Under the pieces are notes generated by a model. That model had not been told where the DNA came from. It saw only the letters and a program-made list of their open reading frames with translations, and did no database searches. 64,000 nucleotides of DNA, taken from the NCBI RefSeq assembly GCF_000025225.2, contig NC_013895.2, positions 558,001 through 622,000 of the forward strand. Reading direction: 5' to 3'. A program made the position numbers and the translations under genes. Positions 37,379-44,323 of the stretch are shown here, piece by piece. This stretch comes from Mageeibacillus indolicus UPII9-5. GTDB taxonomy: Bacteria; Bacillota; Clostridia; Saccharofermentanales; Fastidiosipilaceae. Each line of letters opens with the position of its first letter. Positions within the stretch are counted from its first letter, which is position 1.

Positions 37379-38329
37379 ATGAAAATACTATTTGTTTCCG
37401 GCTTCCTGGGAGCAGGAAAAACACGTTTTATCATGCGAATGAGCAAGGTCACCGGCCGTAAGTTCGTGATAGTCGAGAATGAATTTGCGGACATAAATAT
37501 TGATGCGGAAAGATTGCGAGAGAGTGGAACGAACGGCGATGGAGCGAGTCCGTTTCGCAAAATTGTTGAACTCAGTGAAGGCTGTATTTGCTGTTCCCTT
37601 AATATTGACTTTAACCATTCTTTATACACTATTGCTAATTCCTTAGACCCGGATTATTTGGTGGTTGAACCGAGTGGAGTAGCCAAAACCGCTAGCATAA
37701 TCGAGCATGTGCGTACGATTTGCTACGAGAGGATAGGAATTCTGGCACCGGTTACTATAATTGACGGAAAAAATTACGAAATCAGTCGTAGAAATAATCC
37801 GGATATTTTTTATAGCCAATTACAGACGGCTGGGACGATAGTGGTCAGCAAGTCTGAAACGTGGACCGAGGACGATTATCGCCGCTTAAGTGAAGAACTG
37901 CATATACCGTCAGATGCTGAGTTTTTGCATAAGCATTATGATAAATGGTCAAAAGATGAGTTTGAAGAGTTGCTGCGCAGGGAATATGCCGATCTTAAAA
38001 ATGACATTTTGCCGAATAAATTGAAAAAAAGGTTTGTGCTGACAGCCAAGAATAAAGGACCGGATTTGGAAACGATCAGCTTCAAACGCTGCACCTTACG
38101 GAATCCTATGGAGCTACAGTCTTTTTTACAAATTTTGACCAGTGGGGTTTTGGGGCGGGTGGTCCGCGCTAAGGGTTTTTTCCCTACGGCTAACGGTGAA
38201 AACTTGAATTTCGATTTGGTAGAAGGGCTATACGCGATAACCGGTATGCCTTTGGGTAAGGAAACCAGCATTGTCGTGATTGGTTCTAATCTTAATCGGG
38301 AAACGATAGCATATTTGGTGCAAAATTAA
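37379..38329 (+). CDS. CobW/P47K-family metallochaperone GTPase
   Basis: The 316-residue protein has Walker A GFLGAGKT at the very start, the metal-binding CxCC motif EGCICCSL (about 70) and base-recognition VSKSE. The C-terminal CobW domain (about 215-316) is short. The family delivers zinc, cobalt or other metals to client enzymes using GTP. Its neighbour is a zinc-dependent alcohol dehydrogenase, a possible client, but no Zur box is evident. Confidence 0.82.
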   Translation: MKILFVSGFLGAGKTRFIMRMSKVTGRKFVIVENEFADINIDAERLRESGTNGDGASPFRKIVELSEGCICCSLNIDFNHSLYTIANSLDPDYLVVEPSGVAKTASIIEHVRTICYERIGILAPVTIIDGKNYEISRRNNPDIFYSQLQTAGTIVVSKSETWTEDDYRRLSEELHIPSDAEFLHKHYDKWSKDEFEELLRREYADLKNDILPNKLKKRFVLTAKNKGPDLETISFKRCTLRNPMELQSFLQILTSGVLGRVVRAKGFFPTANGENLNFDLVEGLYAITGMPLGKETSIVVIGSNLNRETIAYLVQN

Positions 38330-38781: not shown

Positions 38782-40473
38782 ATGAACTTCAAAGATATGC
38801 CGTATGTACGGCCGGATATTGAGCAAATAGAAGCTGAATTTACTGACAGATTACACGGGTTTGCAACCGCTTCATTTGTTGATGATCAACTTGAACATTG
38901 GCAGGAACTTAATGTTATCCGAAATAATTGGCAAACTCAGGCGACGCTTTGCCACATCCGGTCTTCAATGGACACGACTGATCCGTTCTACCAAACGGAG
39001 TTGAATTATTTCGATGAACAATCACCGCGTTTTGCGGCATTAGTGGCCAAGTTTTACCGCGCTTTGCTCGACAGCAAATTCCGAAGTGAACTTAATGCCA
39101 AGGTCGGGGATTTGATTTTTAAAATTGCCGAACAGTATTTAACTGCTTTCAATCCAAGTATTATGGATCTTCTGGTGCAGGAAAATAAGCTTAACACGGA
39201 ATACGATTTGCTGCGCTCTTCCGCCAAGCTAGATTTGGACGGGAAAAAATATACATTAGCTGGGCTGCTGCCGTTTACGACCGATCCCGAGCGAGATTTG
39301 CGACACCGGGCGGTCAAGCTTTATAACAAATTTTTTGCCGACAATTTAAACGAGTTCAATATAATTTTCGACAAAATGGTTAAAGTACGTACGGAAATAG
39401 CTCGTAAATTGGGCTATAAGGATTATGTCGCTTTGGGCTATGCGCGTATGGGTCGACTTGATTACGGCGAGGCAGAAGTTGCGGCTTATCGCAAAGCTAT
39501 AATTAAATATATTGTTCCGCTGGCTACCGAATTGCGGCAGCGGCAGGCCACACGCTTGGGCCTTGAGAAGCTGACATTCTACGATGAAGGTTTATCATTT
39601 CCCACTGGAAATCCTAAGCCGCTTGGTAACGAAGAAGAGTTAGTGGAAAAAGCGCGTGCCATGTATAATCAGTTGTCCCCGGAAACAGGGGAGTTCTTTA
39701 ATTTCATGATCTCAAACGGTTTGATGGATTTGCCGCTCCGTCCAGGAAAGCACGGCGGCGGATATTGTGCATACATTCCTTTGTATAAGTCGCCGTTCAT
39801 TTTGGCCAATTTTAATGGCACGGCTGATGACATAGATGTACTGACGCATGAAGTCGGCCATGCTTTCCAAGTGTATCGCAGTCGCAACACAATCCTGCCG
39901 GAATATATCTGGCCTAGCATGGATGCGGCTGAAATACATTCGATGAGTATGGAATATCTAACGTGGAATTATATGAAACCGTTTTTTGGTGCGGCTACCG
40001 ATCGTTACAATTTCGAACATTTGGCCACAGCCGTTTTGTTCATTCCTTACGGGGCATTGGTTGACCATTTCCAACATGAAGTATACCGTCATCCTGAGTT
40101 TACTCCGGCTGAACGTATGAAAACTTGGCGTAAGTTGGAAAAAATATATTTACCGCATCGTGACTATGCGGATATCAAAATACTTAAAGACGGTGGCTAT
40201 TGGTTCCGTCAAAGCCATATTTTTACCTTGCCATTCTATTATATTGATTACACTTTAGCACAAAACTGTTCCTTGCAATTTTGGCACAAAGGGCTAACGA
40301 ATATGAAAGCGGCGTGGCAAGATTACATGCGTTTATGTGACTTGGGCGGCAGCAAAAGCTTTGCACAGCTGGTGAATGCTGCTGGACTTGAAAATCCGTT
40401 CCGGGCAACGACTTTGTCCGAAATTGCCGCACATGCAAAAAAATATTTTGAAAATTTTAAGGAAGAAATTTAA
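38782..40473 (+). CDS. pepF: Oligoendopeptidase, M3 family (PepF-like)
   Basis: The 563-residue protein contains the zinc motif LTHEVGHAFQVY (HEVGH at about 356-360) and the downstream third ligand region PSMDAAEIHSMSMEYL. It is a cytoplasmic peptidase of peptides about 7-17 residues long. An extended -10 (TG-T-TATAAT, 38740-38748) and AAAGGAG precede it. Its stop codon abuts the GTG of the following murL-murD gene, so the two share a transcript. Confidence 0.93.
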   Translation: MNFKDMPYVRPDIEQIEAEFTDRLHGFATASFVDDQLEHWQELNVIRNNWQTQATLCHIRSSMDTTDPFYQTELNYFDEQSPRFAALVAKFYRALLDSKFRSELNAKVGDLIFKIAEQYLTAFNPSIMDLLVQENKLNTEYDLLRSSAKLDLDGKKYTLAGLLPFTTDPERDLRHRAVKLYNKFFADNLNEFNIIFDKMVKVRTEIARKLGYKDYVALGYARMGRLDYGEAEVAAYRKAIIKYIVPLATELRQRQATRLGLEKLTFYDEGLSFPTGNPKPLGNEEELVEKARAMYNQLSPETGEFFNFMISNGLMDLPLRPGKHGGGYCAYIPLYKSPFILANFNGTADDIDVLTHEVGHAFQVYRSRNTILPEYIWPSMDAAEIHSMSMEYLTWNYMKPFFGAATDRYNFEHLATAVLFIPYGALVDHFQHEVYRHPEFTPAERMKTWRKLEKIYLPHRDYADIKILKDGGYWFRQSHIFTLPFYYIDYTLAQNCSLQFWHKGLTNMKAAWQDYMRLCDLGGSKSFAQLVNAAGLENPFRATTLSEIAAHAKKYFENFKEEI

Positions 40474-43400
40474 GTGAAAGCTAAAACTTGGTCTGATTTA
40501 CGTGATAGATATCCACGGTTCATATATGAAAGCTACGAGCTGGCAAGTGGAGACGATGGCCTGACGATAACGTTTAAGTTCAGCGTGCCGGGCCTCGCTG
40601 AATTTACGCCGCGCTGTGTTATTCCGGTCGCGCCTGAGCGAATTAAGAATAAAGATGCTCAAATGTTGCATCGTTTGGCATTTTTATTGGGAATGGTTGA
40701 ACTGATCAGTTACTGGAAGATCGCTTGCCCACCGGAAGTCGTGGTACAAGCCGGCAAACTGAATGAAGCTGAGGTGGAATTTTGGCGCAAGCTCTATTTT
40801 GGCGGCTTGGGAGAGTTTTTTTATCGTAATAACTGTCCGGCGGATTATGACAACTTTATGTATTTGCATTCCGTTGAAGTGCGGGAAAATTTGCCGTTTT
40901 TTTGGACATTATCCACGTATGAAGCGATGAATAAATTGGAAGAAAAAAATGTACGAGAGGTGCTGGTTCCGGTAGGTGGCGGTAAGGATTCAGCTGTAAG
41001 CCTCGCTTTCCTCAAAGCGGCAGGCTATCGTTGTCATGCTTTGGCTATTAATGCGAATGCAGCGGTTTTGGGGACGATCGAAGTCGCCGGTTTAACGGAA
41101 AAAACGCTTATAAGCCGGCAGCTGGATGAAAAAATGTTGAGGTTAAATGAGGAAGGTTTCCTAAATGGTCATACGCCCTTTTCGGCAATAGTGGCCTTTG
41201 AATCTTTGCTGGCAGCTTATTTGTATGATATCCGGGATATTGCCTTGTCCAATGAACGCTCAGCCAATGAAGCAAGTATAATCGGTACGAAAATCAATCA
41301 CCAATATTCTAAATCAGGTGAGTTTGAGCGTGAATTTCAGGGTTATATCGAGCAACAGATCGGATTACCTCAGCGTTATTTCAGTTTACTGCGCCCTTTG
41401 AGTGAGATCGCTATCGCCAAGCATTTTGCTGCTCTGGCGGAATTCCATCCTGTTTTCCATTCGTGCAACCGCGGCAGCAAAAAAGGCGTTTGGTGCGGAA
41501 AATGCGCGAAATGCCTTTTTGTGGCGATTGTTTTGGCTCCGTTCATAGGTGCTGCCCGTGTCGCTGAACTTTGGGGGACGGATATTCTGAATGATGAAGA
41601 GTTGTTGCCGGAATTGGACGAATTGCTCGGGAACACCGGCTGCAAGCCGTTTGAATGTGTGGGTACGATTGATGAAGTTAAGCTTGCTTTGAAATTGCTG
41701 GCCGAACAGGGTGATAAATCTTTGGCGGTACGTCATTTCTTGGGCCGGACTAATTGGGCGTGTGACCACAGCGTGTATGCGTCGTCGTCCTACAATAATT
41801 TGCTGTATACTTATATCCATGATCCGGAATTACCGGTAGAATATATGAAAGTTTTGCCGGTGACATACCAAATTGACCGGGGAACGGCGAATAAAAAAAT
41901 AAAAACGATAGTCTGGGAAAATCAGCCGGGTGAAGTAACCGGCACAGCCGCAAACGTAAGTCCGGTTGCTAATCGCAAGTCAGTTGCCGCAGGAATTGAT
42001 TTTCGGGCTCCAGGGCATCTTGTTTTGGGATTCGGACGTGAGGGAAGGGCAATGCTTGACTTCTTTATCCGTGTCTGTCCGCCTGATTTTGCCGGCAGAA
42101 TAGGTATAGCTAACCTGACTCCGCTCAGTGAAGCAGATATGAAGTATTTGCAAAATCTACCATTTAAGGTGGAAGTTTATGTCGGCAAAGACTATTTGTC
42201 CGCTTTGGCTAAATATGACATTTGCTATAAAAGCCCCGGTATAAGCTTCAAAGAACTCACCGACAGTTGCCTGCCGACAGCTAAATTGCCAGATTACCCG
42301 AATTGTAGGATTACCTGCCAGGCTGATCTTTTCATCCGCGCATTCGCAGCCAAAATAATTGGGGTCACAGGCACAAAGGGCAAATCTACCACGACTTCAC
42401 TAATTCACAGTATGTTGTGCCGCCGCGGTCGGGCTTGGTTGCTGGGTAATATCGGACGCGCACCGTTTACGGCAATAGATGAAATTGCTTCAGCAGATGA
42501 TATTGCGCTTGAGCTTTCATGTCATCAACTGCAATATACGAGTCATAGTCCGCATATTGCGGTGTTGACCAATATTTATCCGGAACATTTGGATCATTAT
42601 CGTGATTATGAAGAGTATATCCAGGCGAAGTTTAATATTCTGCGCTACCAAAAGGTGTCGGACTGGTCGATATTAAACGGCGAACAAATTGATGAAATGC
42701 ATAAATATTTGCCGCAGTTGCCGGCGAAAGTTATTTTGGTTTTACCAAATGATGTAGGTGCAGCTTCAAACGGTGAAGAACTGAACCGGGAATTAAGCGC
42801 AAGGATCGACGCCTACCGAAAAAAGTGTCCTGGTTGGAATATTACAGCTTTGGCATTTTACGACAAACCGGCGAAAACGGCCGTGCGATATATGTTCCTG
42901 CCGTCGCCCGAAGCGGGATTGAATAAATTCACTGTAAATTTGACCGGAATCATTCAGGCTTTGTCCGGACCGGCTCATGCCTGTGATTTAGCCATGGCGA
43001 TAACGGCTGTATTGATTACCGGATTGGCAGTTACCGAAATAAAAAAAGGAATAAGCGACTTTGCCGGTTTGCCGCATCGTTGTGAAGCGGTGAAGTGCTC
43101 GAGCAAAATAAAATTTTTCAATGATTCTATTTCTACTATACCGGAAACTTGCCTTTTGGCGATGCAGACTTTGGAAAAAGTTGACGCATTGATTATCGGT
43201 GGATTGGATCGCGGCATTGATTATTCCGGCTTGGAAAAAAGCATTTTGAACTCCAAGCTTAAGCTGTTGCTTTGCTTGCCAGATACCGGCTGGCAAATCG
43301 CCGATCGACTGCTTGCTGAGGCCGCGTCATTGGGGATTAAATTGCCGAAGATGGTAAAGGTGAAAACAGTACCGGAAGCGGTGCGGCTGGCGGCTACTGA

Positions 43401-43533
43401 GTTGCAGGCGGGGGATGTGTGTTTGTTTTCTCCGGCCGCAGCGAGTTATAACACCTTCAAAGACTTCGCTGAACGCGGCGATGTATTCAAACAGGCGGTG
43501 CGGCTGAACGCCGACTCAGCCAATGTGAAATAA
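40474..43533 (+). CDS. Fusion of MurL-type UDP-MurNAc-L-Ala-L-Glu epimerase and MurD-type ligase
   Basis: The 1019-residue protein starts at GTG immediately after the pepF stop (AAGGA 11 nt upstream). The N-terminal half (about 1-450) matches MurL: an ATP-pyrophosphatase-like loop VPVGGGKDSAVS (about 164-175), ALAINAN, SNERSANEAS and a cysteine-rich CNRGSKKGVWCGKCAKC. MurL uses ATP, releasing AMP, to turn the terminal L-Glu of UDP-MurNAc-L-Ala-L-Glu into D-Glu. The C-terminal half (about 505-1019) is a Mur ligase: Rossmann start LVLGFGREGRAML, P-loop IGVTGTKGKSTT (about 628-639), LTNIYPEHLDHY, and FAGLPHRCEAV with DSISTIPE. In Xanthomonas, MurD2 and MurL are separate proteins. Here one chain could add L-Glu and epimerise it. 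Confidence 0.82.
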   Translation: MKAKTWSDLRDRYPRFIYESYELASGDDGLTITFKFSVPGLAEFTPRCVIPVAPERIKNKDAQMLHRLAFLLGMVELISYWKIACPPEVVVQAGKLNEAEVEFWRKLYFGGLGEFFYRNNCPADYDNFMYLHSVEVRENLPFFWTLSTYEAMNKLEEKNVREVLVPVGGGKDSAVSLAFLKAAGYRCHALAINANAAVLGTIEVAGLTEKTLISRQLDEKMLRLNEEGFLNGHTPFSAIVAFESLLAAYLYDIRDIALSNERSANEASIIGTKINHQYSKSGEFEREFQGYIEQQIGLPQRYFSLLRPLSEIAIAKHFAALAEFHPVFHSCNRGSKKGVWCGKCAKCLFVAIVLAPFIGAARVAELWGTDILNDEELLPELDELLGNTGCKPFECVGTIDEVKLALKLLAEQGDKSLAVRHFLGRTNWACDHSVYASSSYNNLLYTYIHDPELPVEYMKVLPVTYQIDRGTANKKIKTIVWENQPGEVTGTAANVSPVANRKSVAAGIDFRAPGHLVLGFGREGRAMLDFFIRVCPPDFAGRIGIANLTPLSEADMKYLQNLPFKVEVYVGKDYLSALAKYDICYKSPGISFKELTDSCLPTAKLPDYPNCRITCQADLFIRAFAAKIIGVTGTKGKSTTTSLIHSMLCRRGRAWLLGNIGRAPFTAIDEIASADDIALELSCHQLQYTSHSPHIAVLTNIYPEHLDHYRDYEEYIQAKFNILRYQKVSDWSILNGEQIDEMHKYLPQLPAKVILVLPNDVGAASNGEELNRELSARIDAYRKKCPGWNITALAFYDKPAKTAVRYMFLPSPEAGLNKFTVNLTGIIQALSGPAHACDLAMAITAVLITGLAVTEIKKGISDFAGLPHRCEAVKCSSKIKFFNDSISTIPETCLLAMQTLEKVDALIIGGLDRGIDYSGLEKSILNSKLKLLLCLPDTGWQIADRLLAEAASLGIKLPKMVKVKTVPEAVRLAATELQAGDVCLFSPAAASYNTFKDFAERGDVFKQAVRLNADSANVK

Positions 43534-43606
43534 AAGATAACTATTGCCTAATCATCAAATTTTAGTTAATATAACTGATATAAATTTTTAGGAAATGGTG
43601 AATGTT

Positions 43607-44323
43607 ATGACAAATGAATTACTTCTTATTTTCTCATTGGTTTTTATTTATGGGGGAGTTTTGGTCGCCTATAAATTATTTGGCCGAGTTGGACTTTTTT
43701 GTTTTACCGCCATCGCGGCTATTCTTGCCAATGTTGAAGTTGCGATGTTGATTGAAGGTTTCGGTATGGTACAAACTTTGGGCAACGTCCTGTTTGCGTC
43801 TAGCTTCTTGGTGACGGATATTTTAAGCGAAAATTATGGCAAAAAAGATGCTCAAGTGGCCGTTAACATCGGAATTTTCACGTCCGTTATCTTTATTGTT
43901 TTAGCGCAATCCTGGTTGCTCTATCATCCAATTCCTGATCATGCGCCTAGTGCTGCTTTCCCATTGGTCTTCGGTAATACGCCGCGTATTTTGGGTGCCA
44001 GCTTCTTTGTTTATGCTGTTTCTCAGCGGTTTGACGTTTTTCTTTATCACAAATGGTGGGACATAAGCAGCAAATGGAAAAATGACCGCCGTCCGTATTT
44101 GTGGCTGCGCAACAACGGCTCAACTTTGTTTTCTCAGTTGCTCAACACGGTTATGTTCAATGTTTTGGCATTTGCCGGTACCGAGTCATGGGGGACTGTT
44201 CTCAGCATTATAATTTCCTGCTATGTCATCTTTATCTTTACTAGCTTGTTAGATACGCCTGTTGTTTACATTGCGCGCCGCATAAAGCCGCGTATGGATG
44301 CTCCGGTCAAGCAAGAGAAGTAA
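43607..44323 (+). CDS. Queuosine precursor transporter family (YhhQ/VUT) membrane protein
   Basis: The protein has 238 residues from ATG 43607 (GGTG 6 nt upstream; ATG 43595 also possible) and about six to seven hydrophobic helices. The family motif is seen in FASSFLVTDILSENYGKKDA and in the QRFDVFLYHKWW block. YhhQ homologues import preQ0/preQ1 or related bases for tRNA queuosine. No que or tgt genes are nearby in the window. Confidence 0.85.
   Translation: MTNELLLIFSLVFIYGGVLVAYKLFGRVGLFCFTAIAAILANVEVAMLIEGFGMVQTLGNVLFASSFLVTDILSENYGKKDAQVAVNIGIFTSVIFIVLAQSWLLYHPIPDHAPSAAFPLVFGNTPRILGASFFVYAVSQRFDVFLYHKWWDISSKWKNDRRPYLWLRNNGSTLFSQLLNTVMFNVLAFAGTESWGTVLSIIISCYVIFIFTSLLDTPVVYIARRIKPRMDAPVKQEK

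Follow-up and report, generated by a model that had tools for sequence, protein, structure and literature searches.

A MurL-MurD2 fusion as the probable source of peptidoglycan D-glutamate in Mageeibacillus indolicus

How does a bacterium whose genome contains no recognizable glutamate racemase obtain the D-glutamate of its cell wall? The question is raised by a gene in a stretch of 64,000 nucleotides (the window; G+C content 42.6%) of the genome of Mageeibacillus indolicus UPII9-5 (NC_013895.2, positions 558,001 to 622,000), a bacterium described in PMC11318147 as one of the female genital tract and a member of the family Fastidiosipilaceae in the order Saccharofermentanales (below, the family and the order). 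The gene occupies positions 40474-43533 on the forward strand of the window, starts with GTG and consists of 1019 codons plus the stop in a single open frame. A reading made from the letters alone (the sequence-only reading) had described it as MurL joined to a Mur ligase in one 1019-codon frame, and this description holds, the frame being open and both halves matching profiles. We consider it highly probable that the gene encodes a bifunctional peptidoglycan enzyme that ligates L-glutamate, then epimerizes it and thus replaces the racemase; both activities and their order, as well as the zinc and the channelling discussed below, are what we infer for this protein. Under the proposed mechanism, the C-terminal MurD2-type half would add L-glutamate to UDP-N-acetylmuramoyl-L-alanine (UDP-MurNAc-L-Ala) using ATP, the fused protein would then flip the added residue to D-glutamate, and the route would stand in for glutamate racemase.

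The protein has two main matches among the NCBIfam profiles, and these do not overlap. The MurD2-type ligase half (residues 497-1019, positions 41962-43530, forward strand as for all features of the gene) matches TIGR01087 (murD) over residues 516-1010 with 255 bits (E 1.3e-75), over the cut-off of 212, and contains the ATP-binding loop of Mur ligases (GTKGKSTT, residues 633-640, positions 42370-42393). The MurL-like half (residues 1-463, positions 40474-41862) matches NF041275 over residues 14-413 (model positions 10-397 of 447) with 264 bits and E 1.4e-78. Given such E-values for curated profiles, neither match is due to chance. NF041275 (MurL_Xanthmoales) is, however, a narrow NCBI equivalog model named for Xanthomonadales, and 264 bits is well below its cut-off of 700, so that the half cannot be filed under this equivalog, a point that counts against the assignment; Xanthomonas sacchari MurL scores 836 bits, and 241 and 257 bits were obtained for two split MurLs from Clostridia. 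The MurL motifs of the fusion fall in invariant or near-invariant columns of an alignment (A1) that includes X. sacchari MurL. They comprise the PP-loop GGGKDS (residues 168-173, positions 40975-40992; invariant in A1 and in a further alignment, A4), the SNE motif (residues 259-261) and SCN..WCGKCAKC (residues 330-347, positions 41461-41514), in which the four cysteines of the Cys4 motif C331-x9-C341-x2-C344-x2-C347 are invariant in 52 sequences. Judging by profile, motifs and gene company, this half is a member of the wider MurL family; the identification of the N-terminal half as MurL in the sequence-only reading agrees with the profile and motif results.

The genome is a single contig of 1,809,746 bases with an estimated (by a tool) completeness of 99.99%. 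In a profile search, the fusion is the sole MurD over the cut-off, and the other five MurD-profile matches, at four places, are MurC, MurT, MurF and MurE. At E 0.001, this one-contig genome yields no match to the glutamate racemase MurI (TIGR00067; sought by profile only) or to Asp/Glu racemase (PF01177), with 10 of 14 controls positive for each, and none to class IV aminotransferase (PF01063, Aminotran_4; 13 of 14 controls positive), a family that we take to include D-amino-acid transaminase. The suggestion of the sequence-only reading that the cell may do without MurI is supported, with neither MurI nor a separate MurD over the cut-off being found. MurC, MurE, MurF and MraY all exceed their cut-offs, and strong matches below the cut-offs were obtained for FtsW (281 of 337.5 bits) and MurT (266 of 800 bits). 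In known systems MurT, as its family name states, takes part in amidating the D-Glu of lipid II, and its match is therefore a hint that D-Glu is present in the wall. The fused enzyme is very probably the route of this cell to that D-Glu. An apparently empty murD slot in the division cluster, where only 7 nt separate mraY from ftsW and leave no room for murD, was considered as additional evidence and rejected, because mraY or ftsW adjoins murD at none of 30 murD loci of relatives in the order (flanks of at most 1.5 kb per side, several ended by contig ends; two of the 30 loci MurL-linked).

Across genomes, MurL and MurI are mutually exclusive. Among 58 genomes of the order, MurL is present in 12, namely 11 of the 12 members of the family and one outside it; the family member that lacks it (G005) is 84% complete and also has no MurD over the cut-off. 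MurI over the cut-off is found in none of the 12 MurL genomes vs 41 of the 46 others (Fisher p 7e-9, uncorrected for kinship), and one MurL-bearing genome (G008) has a single weak partial MurI match of 24 bits. In the larger set of 188 genomes of the order, MurL is present in 13. A scan of named bacterial contigs with the MurL alignment gave at least 583 confirmed stretches, of which the best 80 were kept as loci. By their titles, these belong to Lachnospiraceae, Oscillospiraceae/Ruminococcaceae, Erysipelotrichaceae and other Bacillota as well as to Bacteroidales and other Bacteroidota; murD is within 300 nt of murL in 71 of them, about 2.7 kb away in two and fused in three, and in four there is none over 300 bits. 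MurI over the cut-off is absent from all 50 genomes tested behind these loci, one of which (L093) seems to repeat G006, a genome of the order. A phylum sample of 398 genomes, which was drawn evenly from a larger group and gives no prevalence, contains MurL in one genome (that of M. indolicus itself) and MurI over the cut-off in 351.

Several side observations concern the distribution of murL. Five genomes of the order (G005, G014, G051, G056 and G057) have neither MurL nor MurI over the cut-off; the last four may draw on yet another source of D-Glu or have a racemase that is divergent or was missed. In another family of the order, two genomes of genus g24 (G047, locus L031, and G631) carry murL, in the case of G047 without MurI, and a transfer between families is possible. 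The four loci where murL is present but the fetched stretch shows no murD above 300 bits are all from Bacteroidales (L126, L134, L135 and L140). The MurL of a metagenome-assembled genome (MAG) labelled Alistipes (L098, Bacteroidota) groups with Clostridia MurLs, which points to transfer or to a bin with the wrong label. A murL-like gene also occurs on Pseudonocardia plasmids (L068, 3872-5272; L069, 3872-5281), where no murD is annotated in the surrounding 4 kb or so; the L068 gene scores 323 bits against NF041275, and this is possibly a second kind of epimerase.

Among the closest known systems is that of Xanthomonas, in which MurL and MurD2 form a pair (in X. oryzae, XOO_1319 and XOO_1320; PMC8788868, PMC5808125). 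The two systems share the PP-loop and Cys motifs in MurL, the Glu/Arg (E/R) pair in MurD2 discussed next and the lack of a reported D-Glu gene; in X. sacchari, murL is followed by the adjacent murD2, in the same order as the halves here, and the activities of the Xanthomonas proteins are those proposed for the halves of the fusion. The difference is that the Xanthomonas enzymes are two separate proteins and the one here is a single chain.

As for the choice of substrate, mutagenesis reported in PMC8788868 singles out two residues of X. oryzae MurD2, E197 and R358, which correspond to D182 and K348 of Escherichia coli MurD; an enzyme in which both are exchanged for their E. coli counterparts uses D-Glu instead. 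In the fusion, these positions are E704 (positions 42583-42585) and R913 (positions 43210-43212), which align with positions 183 and 349 of E. coli MurD in numbering that counts the start Met. The prediction of the sequence-only reading that the MurD half prefers L-Glu fits these two residues. The E/R pair is present in X. sacchari MurD2 and in all 12 MurL-linked MurDs examined from the order, a set that covers its MurL genomes except G631, and 71 of the 76 MurL-linked MurDs of the named-contig loci (one of the 76, L093, apparently G006 again) have it as well. Relatives in the order without a linked MurL have Asn/Lys (N/K) in 28 of 28 MurDs, these being what remains of the 30 top-scoring MurD loci in the order once two MurL-linked ones are removed. 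In the MurD tree, the MurL-linked MurDs fall together on one side, with support of 94 in a quick tree and 98/98 in a careful tree of 30 rows. X. sacchari MurD2 lies next to them in the careful tree, and common descent of the L-Glu-type MurDs appears likely.

The predicted structure of the MurL half points to a mechanism for the second step. MurL requires ATP and releases AMP, and its proposed steps are adenylation of the alpha-carboxylate, epimerization and hydrolysis, with AMP formed; the same source describes it as having no known conserved domains (PMC8788868, in the parts on MurL). A model of residues 1-472 (mean predicted local distance difference test score, pLDDT, 90.4; predicted template modelling score, pTM, 0.91) suggests a PP-loop fold like that of the 7-cyano-7-deazaguanine synthase QueC and of QatC, a protein of the anti-phage system qatABCD. 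Foldseek retrieved first QueC (2pg3, E 1.4e-4), QatC (9y02_B, 1.8e-4) and TtuA (4.7e-4). With VIA-align, which reports ranges and not residue pairs, the closest match is QatC (Z 18.8, 330 aligned, root-mean-square deviation 4.1, model residues 12-425), followed by QueC (Z 13.4, 202 aligned, deviation 3.8) and Cap9 (Z 12.5, 169 aligned); the first match outside these three families is argininosuccinate synthase (Z 10.7). Common to the MurL half, QueC and QatC are the predicted fold, an SGGxDS-like loop and the pattern C-x8/9-C-x2-C-x2-C. The loop GGGKDS and the motif C331-x9-C341GKC344AKC347 compare with SGGQDS and C188-x8-CGHCAAC in E. coli QueC and are variants of the superfamily consensus given in PMC13329287, SGGxDS and C(x)8CxxCxxC, with nine rather than eight residues after the first cysteine.

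QueC and QatC differ from the MurL half in their substrates, and sequence identity in the structural alignments is 10-16%. The QueC profile PF06508 yields only 22.0 bits with the half alone, over the short stretch 164-193 (gathering score 22), and 19.4 bits with the whole protein; at E 0.01, the row of the fusion is the only one of 49 MurL rows that matches. PADLOC scans of these 49 rows gave no QatC match by sequence, and a PDB profile search with MurL gave TtuA at 2.4e-5 and QueC at 0.99. It is thus the predicted fold that would link the MurL half to QatC. According to PMC13329287 and PMC13279940, ATP and zinc are handled in QueC-family enzymes through the PP-loop and the Cys4 motif, and QueC itself uses ATP to activate a carboxylate. 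ATP-driven carboxylate activation, known for QueC, is what has been proposed for MurL, and the predicted fold, together with the PP-loop and Cys4 motif, would make the ATP-to-AMP chemistry plausible; by analogy with QueC, the Cys4 motif is a probable zinc site. In addition, the QatC paper describes the reaction of QatC as unresolved and the extensions at both ends of QatC, N-terminal and C-terminal, as features that QueC and Cap9 lack. The alignment of the MurL model with QatC is 128 residues longer than that with QueC, and on this basis we put forward a broader reading, as a tentative and rather unlikely one. MurL would be a housekeeping enzyme of the QueC superfamily with the whole architecture of QatC (N-terminal extension, QueC core and Cys4), epimerizing a peptide end via a QueC-style acyl-adenylate; QatC would likewise activate a peptide or amino-acid carboxylate, as opposed to 7-carboxy-7-deazaguanine, and the fused machine would make wall D-Glu without free D-Glu in the cell. 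A side observation on the same region is that DUF6395 (PF19932, with no function assigned in Pfam), which may be another QueC-like family, weakly matches 16 of the 49 MurL rows, in the fusion at 309-349, the Cys motif.

The fused state recurs. Fused frames of 1019-1070 aa are present in six of the 13 MurL-bearing genomes of the order; the five besides M. indolicus (1020-1070 aa, with no internal stop) represent three further genera. Within the family, genera g1, g3, g7 and g8 have fusions and g2, g4, g5 and g9 have split pairs. Outside the order, fusions were detected in a Eubacteriales MAG (L109, 911-codon frame) and a Bacteroidales MAG (L137, 933-codon frame), in both of which the fused frame is the sole MurD over the cut-off; the third fused locus among the best 80, L093, is the fusion of a genome of the order, G006, which appears to have been sampled again. 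A joint MurL and MurD tree of 27 rows implies four changes between the fused and split states, two of them within the family, and the minimal number of changes is five on the MurL tree, four on the MurD tree and four on the joint tree, the separate MurL and MurD trees being quick ones with long branches. A single clade of the family fusions with subsequent splitting is not rejected on the joint tree (approximately unbiased test, p 0.129). One origin of all fusions was considered and appears unlikely, because those from Eubacteriales and Bacteroidales sit apart from those of the family on the trees, a judgement from tree position as opposed to a formal test. Most simply, there were three or more origins overall and one or more within the family.

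Does the fusion have a functional meaning of its own? The AlphaFold2 model of the full protein (74 sequences; mean pLDDT 88.6, pTM 0.70; the first 33 Foldseek rows are MurD) has two well-folded halves of uncertain mutual placement, joined by a linker predicted to be disordered (residues 464-496, positions 41863-41961, pLDDT below 50). Two folded halves with a disordered linker argue for tethering rather than a rigid tunnel, and the channelling of the intermediate envisaged in the sequence-only reading does not find support in this model. The flexible linker would most likely fix a 1:1 ratio and keep the intermediate close, without a sealed tunnel. We see almost even chances, slightly on the negative side, that the route is as proposed and the fusion has no functional meaning, having arisen by loss of a stop between adjacent genes with the domains remaining independent. 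Such an origin is compatible with the main route and would suit the disordered linker, the same gene content in split relatives and a junction that adds almost no residues: the distance from the ECVG motif of MurL to the GxGxEG motif of MurD is 106-127 residues in the six fusions of the order and, when summed, 102-110 in five split pairs of the order (83 and 87 in L109 and L137; 82 in the split pair of X. sacchari). On the other side, four genera of the family and two other lineages have a fused frame, so the fused state has at least been tolerated repeatedly. The fusion of two Mur enzymes is not without precedent, as Bordetella pertussis MurE-MurF is a natural fusion. It likewise places two successive cytoplasmic steps of the Mur pathway on a single chain (PMC6420597), but these are two ligases, whereas the protein here combines a ligase with an epimerase.

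In another reading, the MurD half ligates D-Glu like an ordinary MurD, this D-Glu comes from outside or from an unrecognized racemase, and the MurL half does something else; we regard this as very improbable. Several observations lend it weight or count against our assignment. Streptococcus mutans MurD carries the Arg yet uses D-Glu (PMC8788868), and five of the 76 MurL-linked MurDs (L073, L089, L096, L104 and L111) lack the Glu and have Asp/Arg (D/R); the E/R signature is therefore only suggestive. X. sacchari MurD2 lies beside, not within, the MurL-linked MurDs of Bacillota and Bacteroidota, on a long branch (93/75, unstarred). Weak MurI matches below the cut-off occur in 15 of the 50 MurL genomes, the best at 78.6 bits (cut-off 146.65) over positions 1-222 of 251. 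The cell might also take up D-Glu from its environment, which for this bacterium is probably a mucosa and may offer D-Glu. Finally, the activities are assigned through kinship with assayed proteins of Xanthomonas and not of the clade of the fusion. Against an ordinary D-Glu ligase stand the E/R pair of the fusion, which is not N/K or D/K, and the tested function of the Xanthomonas pair, which is L-Glu ligation and epimerization (PMC8788868). Moreover, judged by their titles, genomes from rumen, gut and the environment keep MurL together with MurD, and none of the 50 tested has MurI over the cut-off. We therefore retain the bifunctional, racemase-replacing enzyme as the preferred interpretation. 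As a separate observation, three of the D/R MurDs beside MurL are from Pseudobutyrivibrio, and the D/R set offers a test case for the L-Glu determinant. An assembly or sequencing artefact, conceivable inasmuch as the two genes overlap in different frames in many relatives and one indel could fuse them, has a negligible probability, because the genome is one contig and five other genomes of the order have stop-free fused frames.

Directly upstream of the fusion is a gene for an M3 oligoendopeptidase (38782-40473, forward strand; TIGR02289, 614 bits), the stop codon of which abuts the GTG start; AAGGAAG at 40459-40465 (forward strand), within the end of that gene, is by its position the likely ribosome-binding site, and co-translation of the two genes is likely. 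Relatives of this peptidase accompany the fusion in two genomes of genus g3 (L022 and L028). A conserved neighbourhood was considered and rejected: of seven window neighbours, the M3 peptidase alone recurs near murL, at two of 91 loci. A COG0523/CobW-like GTPase (37379-38329; ZigA model, 85 bits, under the cut-off) lies about 2 kb upstream of the fusion and is found near murL at none of the 91 loci; in Acinetobacter, a COG0523 protein has reportedly been linked to MurD (PMC12208494). Directly downstream of the fusion with its QueC-like MurL half is a queuosine precursor transporter (43595-44323; TIGR00697, 160 bits), which likewise adjoins murL at none of the 91 loci.

The route itself is already known. 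The taxa named for MurL/MurD2 in the relevant passages of PMC8788868 are Gamma- and Alphaproteobacteria and actinobacteria, with no Clostridia, Bacteroidales, Bacillota or Bacteroidota among them, and PMC5808125, where it treats orthologs, adds ones of low similarity in a fungus, cyanobacteria and an amoeba. In the open-access literature searched, we found neither a MurL-MurD fusion nor a connection between MurL and QueC described, and the recurrence of the fused form, the spread in Clostridia and Bacteroidales and the QueC/QatC-like fold were likewise not found there. If our interpretation is correct, a route listed for a few proteobacterial and actinobacterial genera serves many Clostridia and Bacteroidales without a recognized glutamate racemase, probably including a vaginal bacterium. 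Racemase inhibitors should leave such bacteria indifferent, and narrow-spectrum inhibitors of MurL/MurD2 should hit them. The one-chain form would provide a clean system for measuring the channelling of the L-Glu intermediate, and the predicted QueC/QatC-like fold would give MurL a concrete, testable mechanism.

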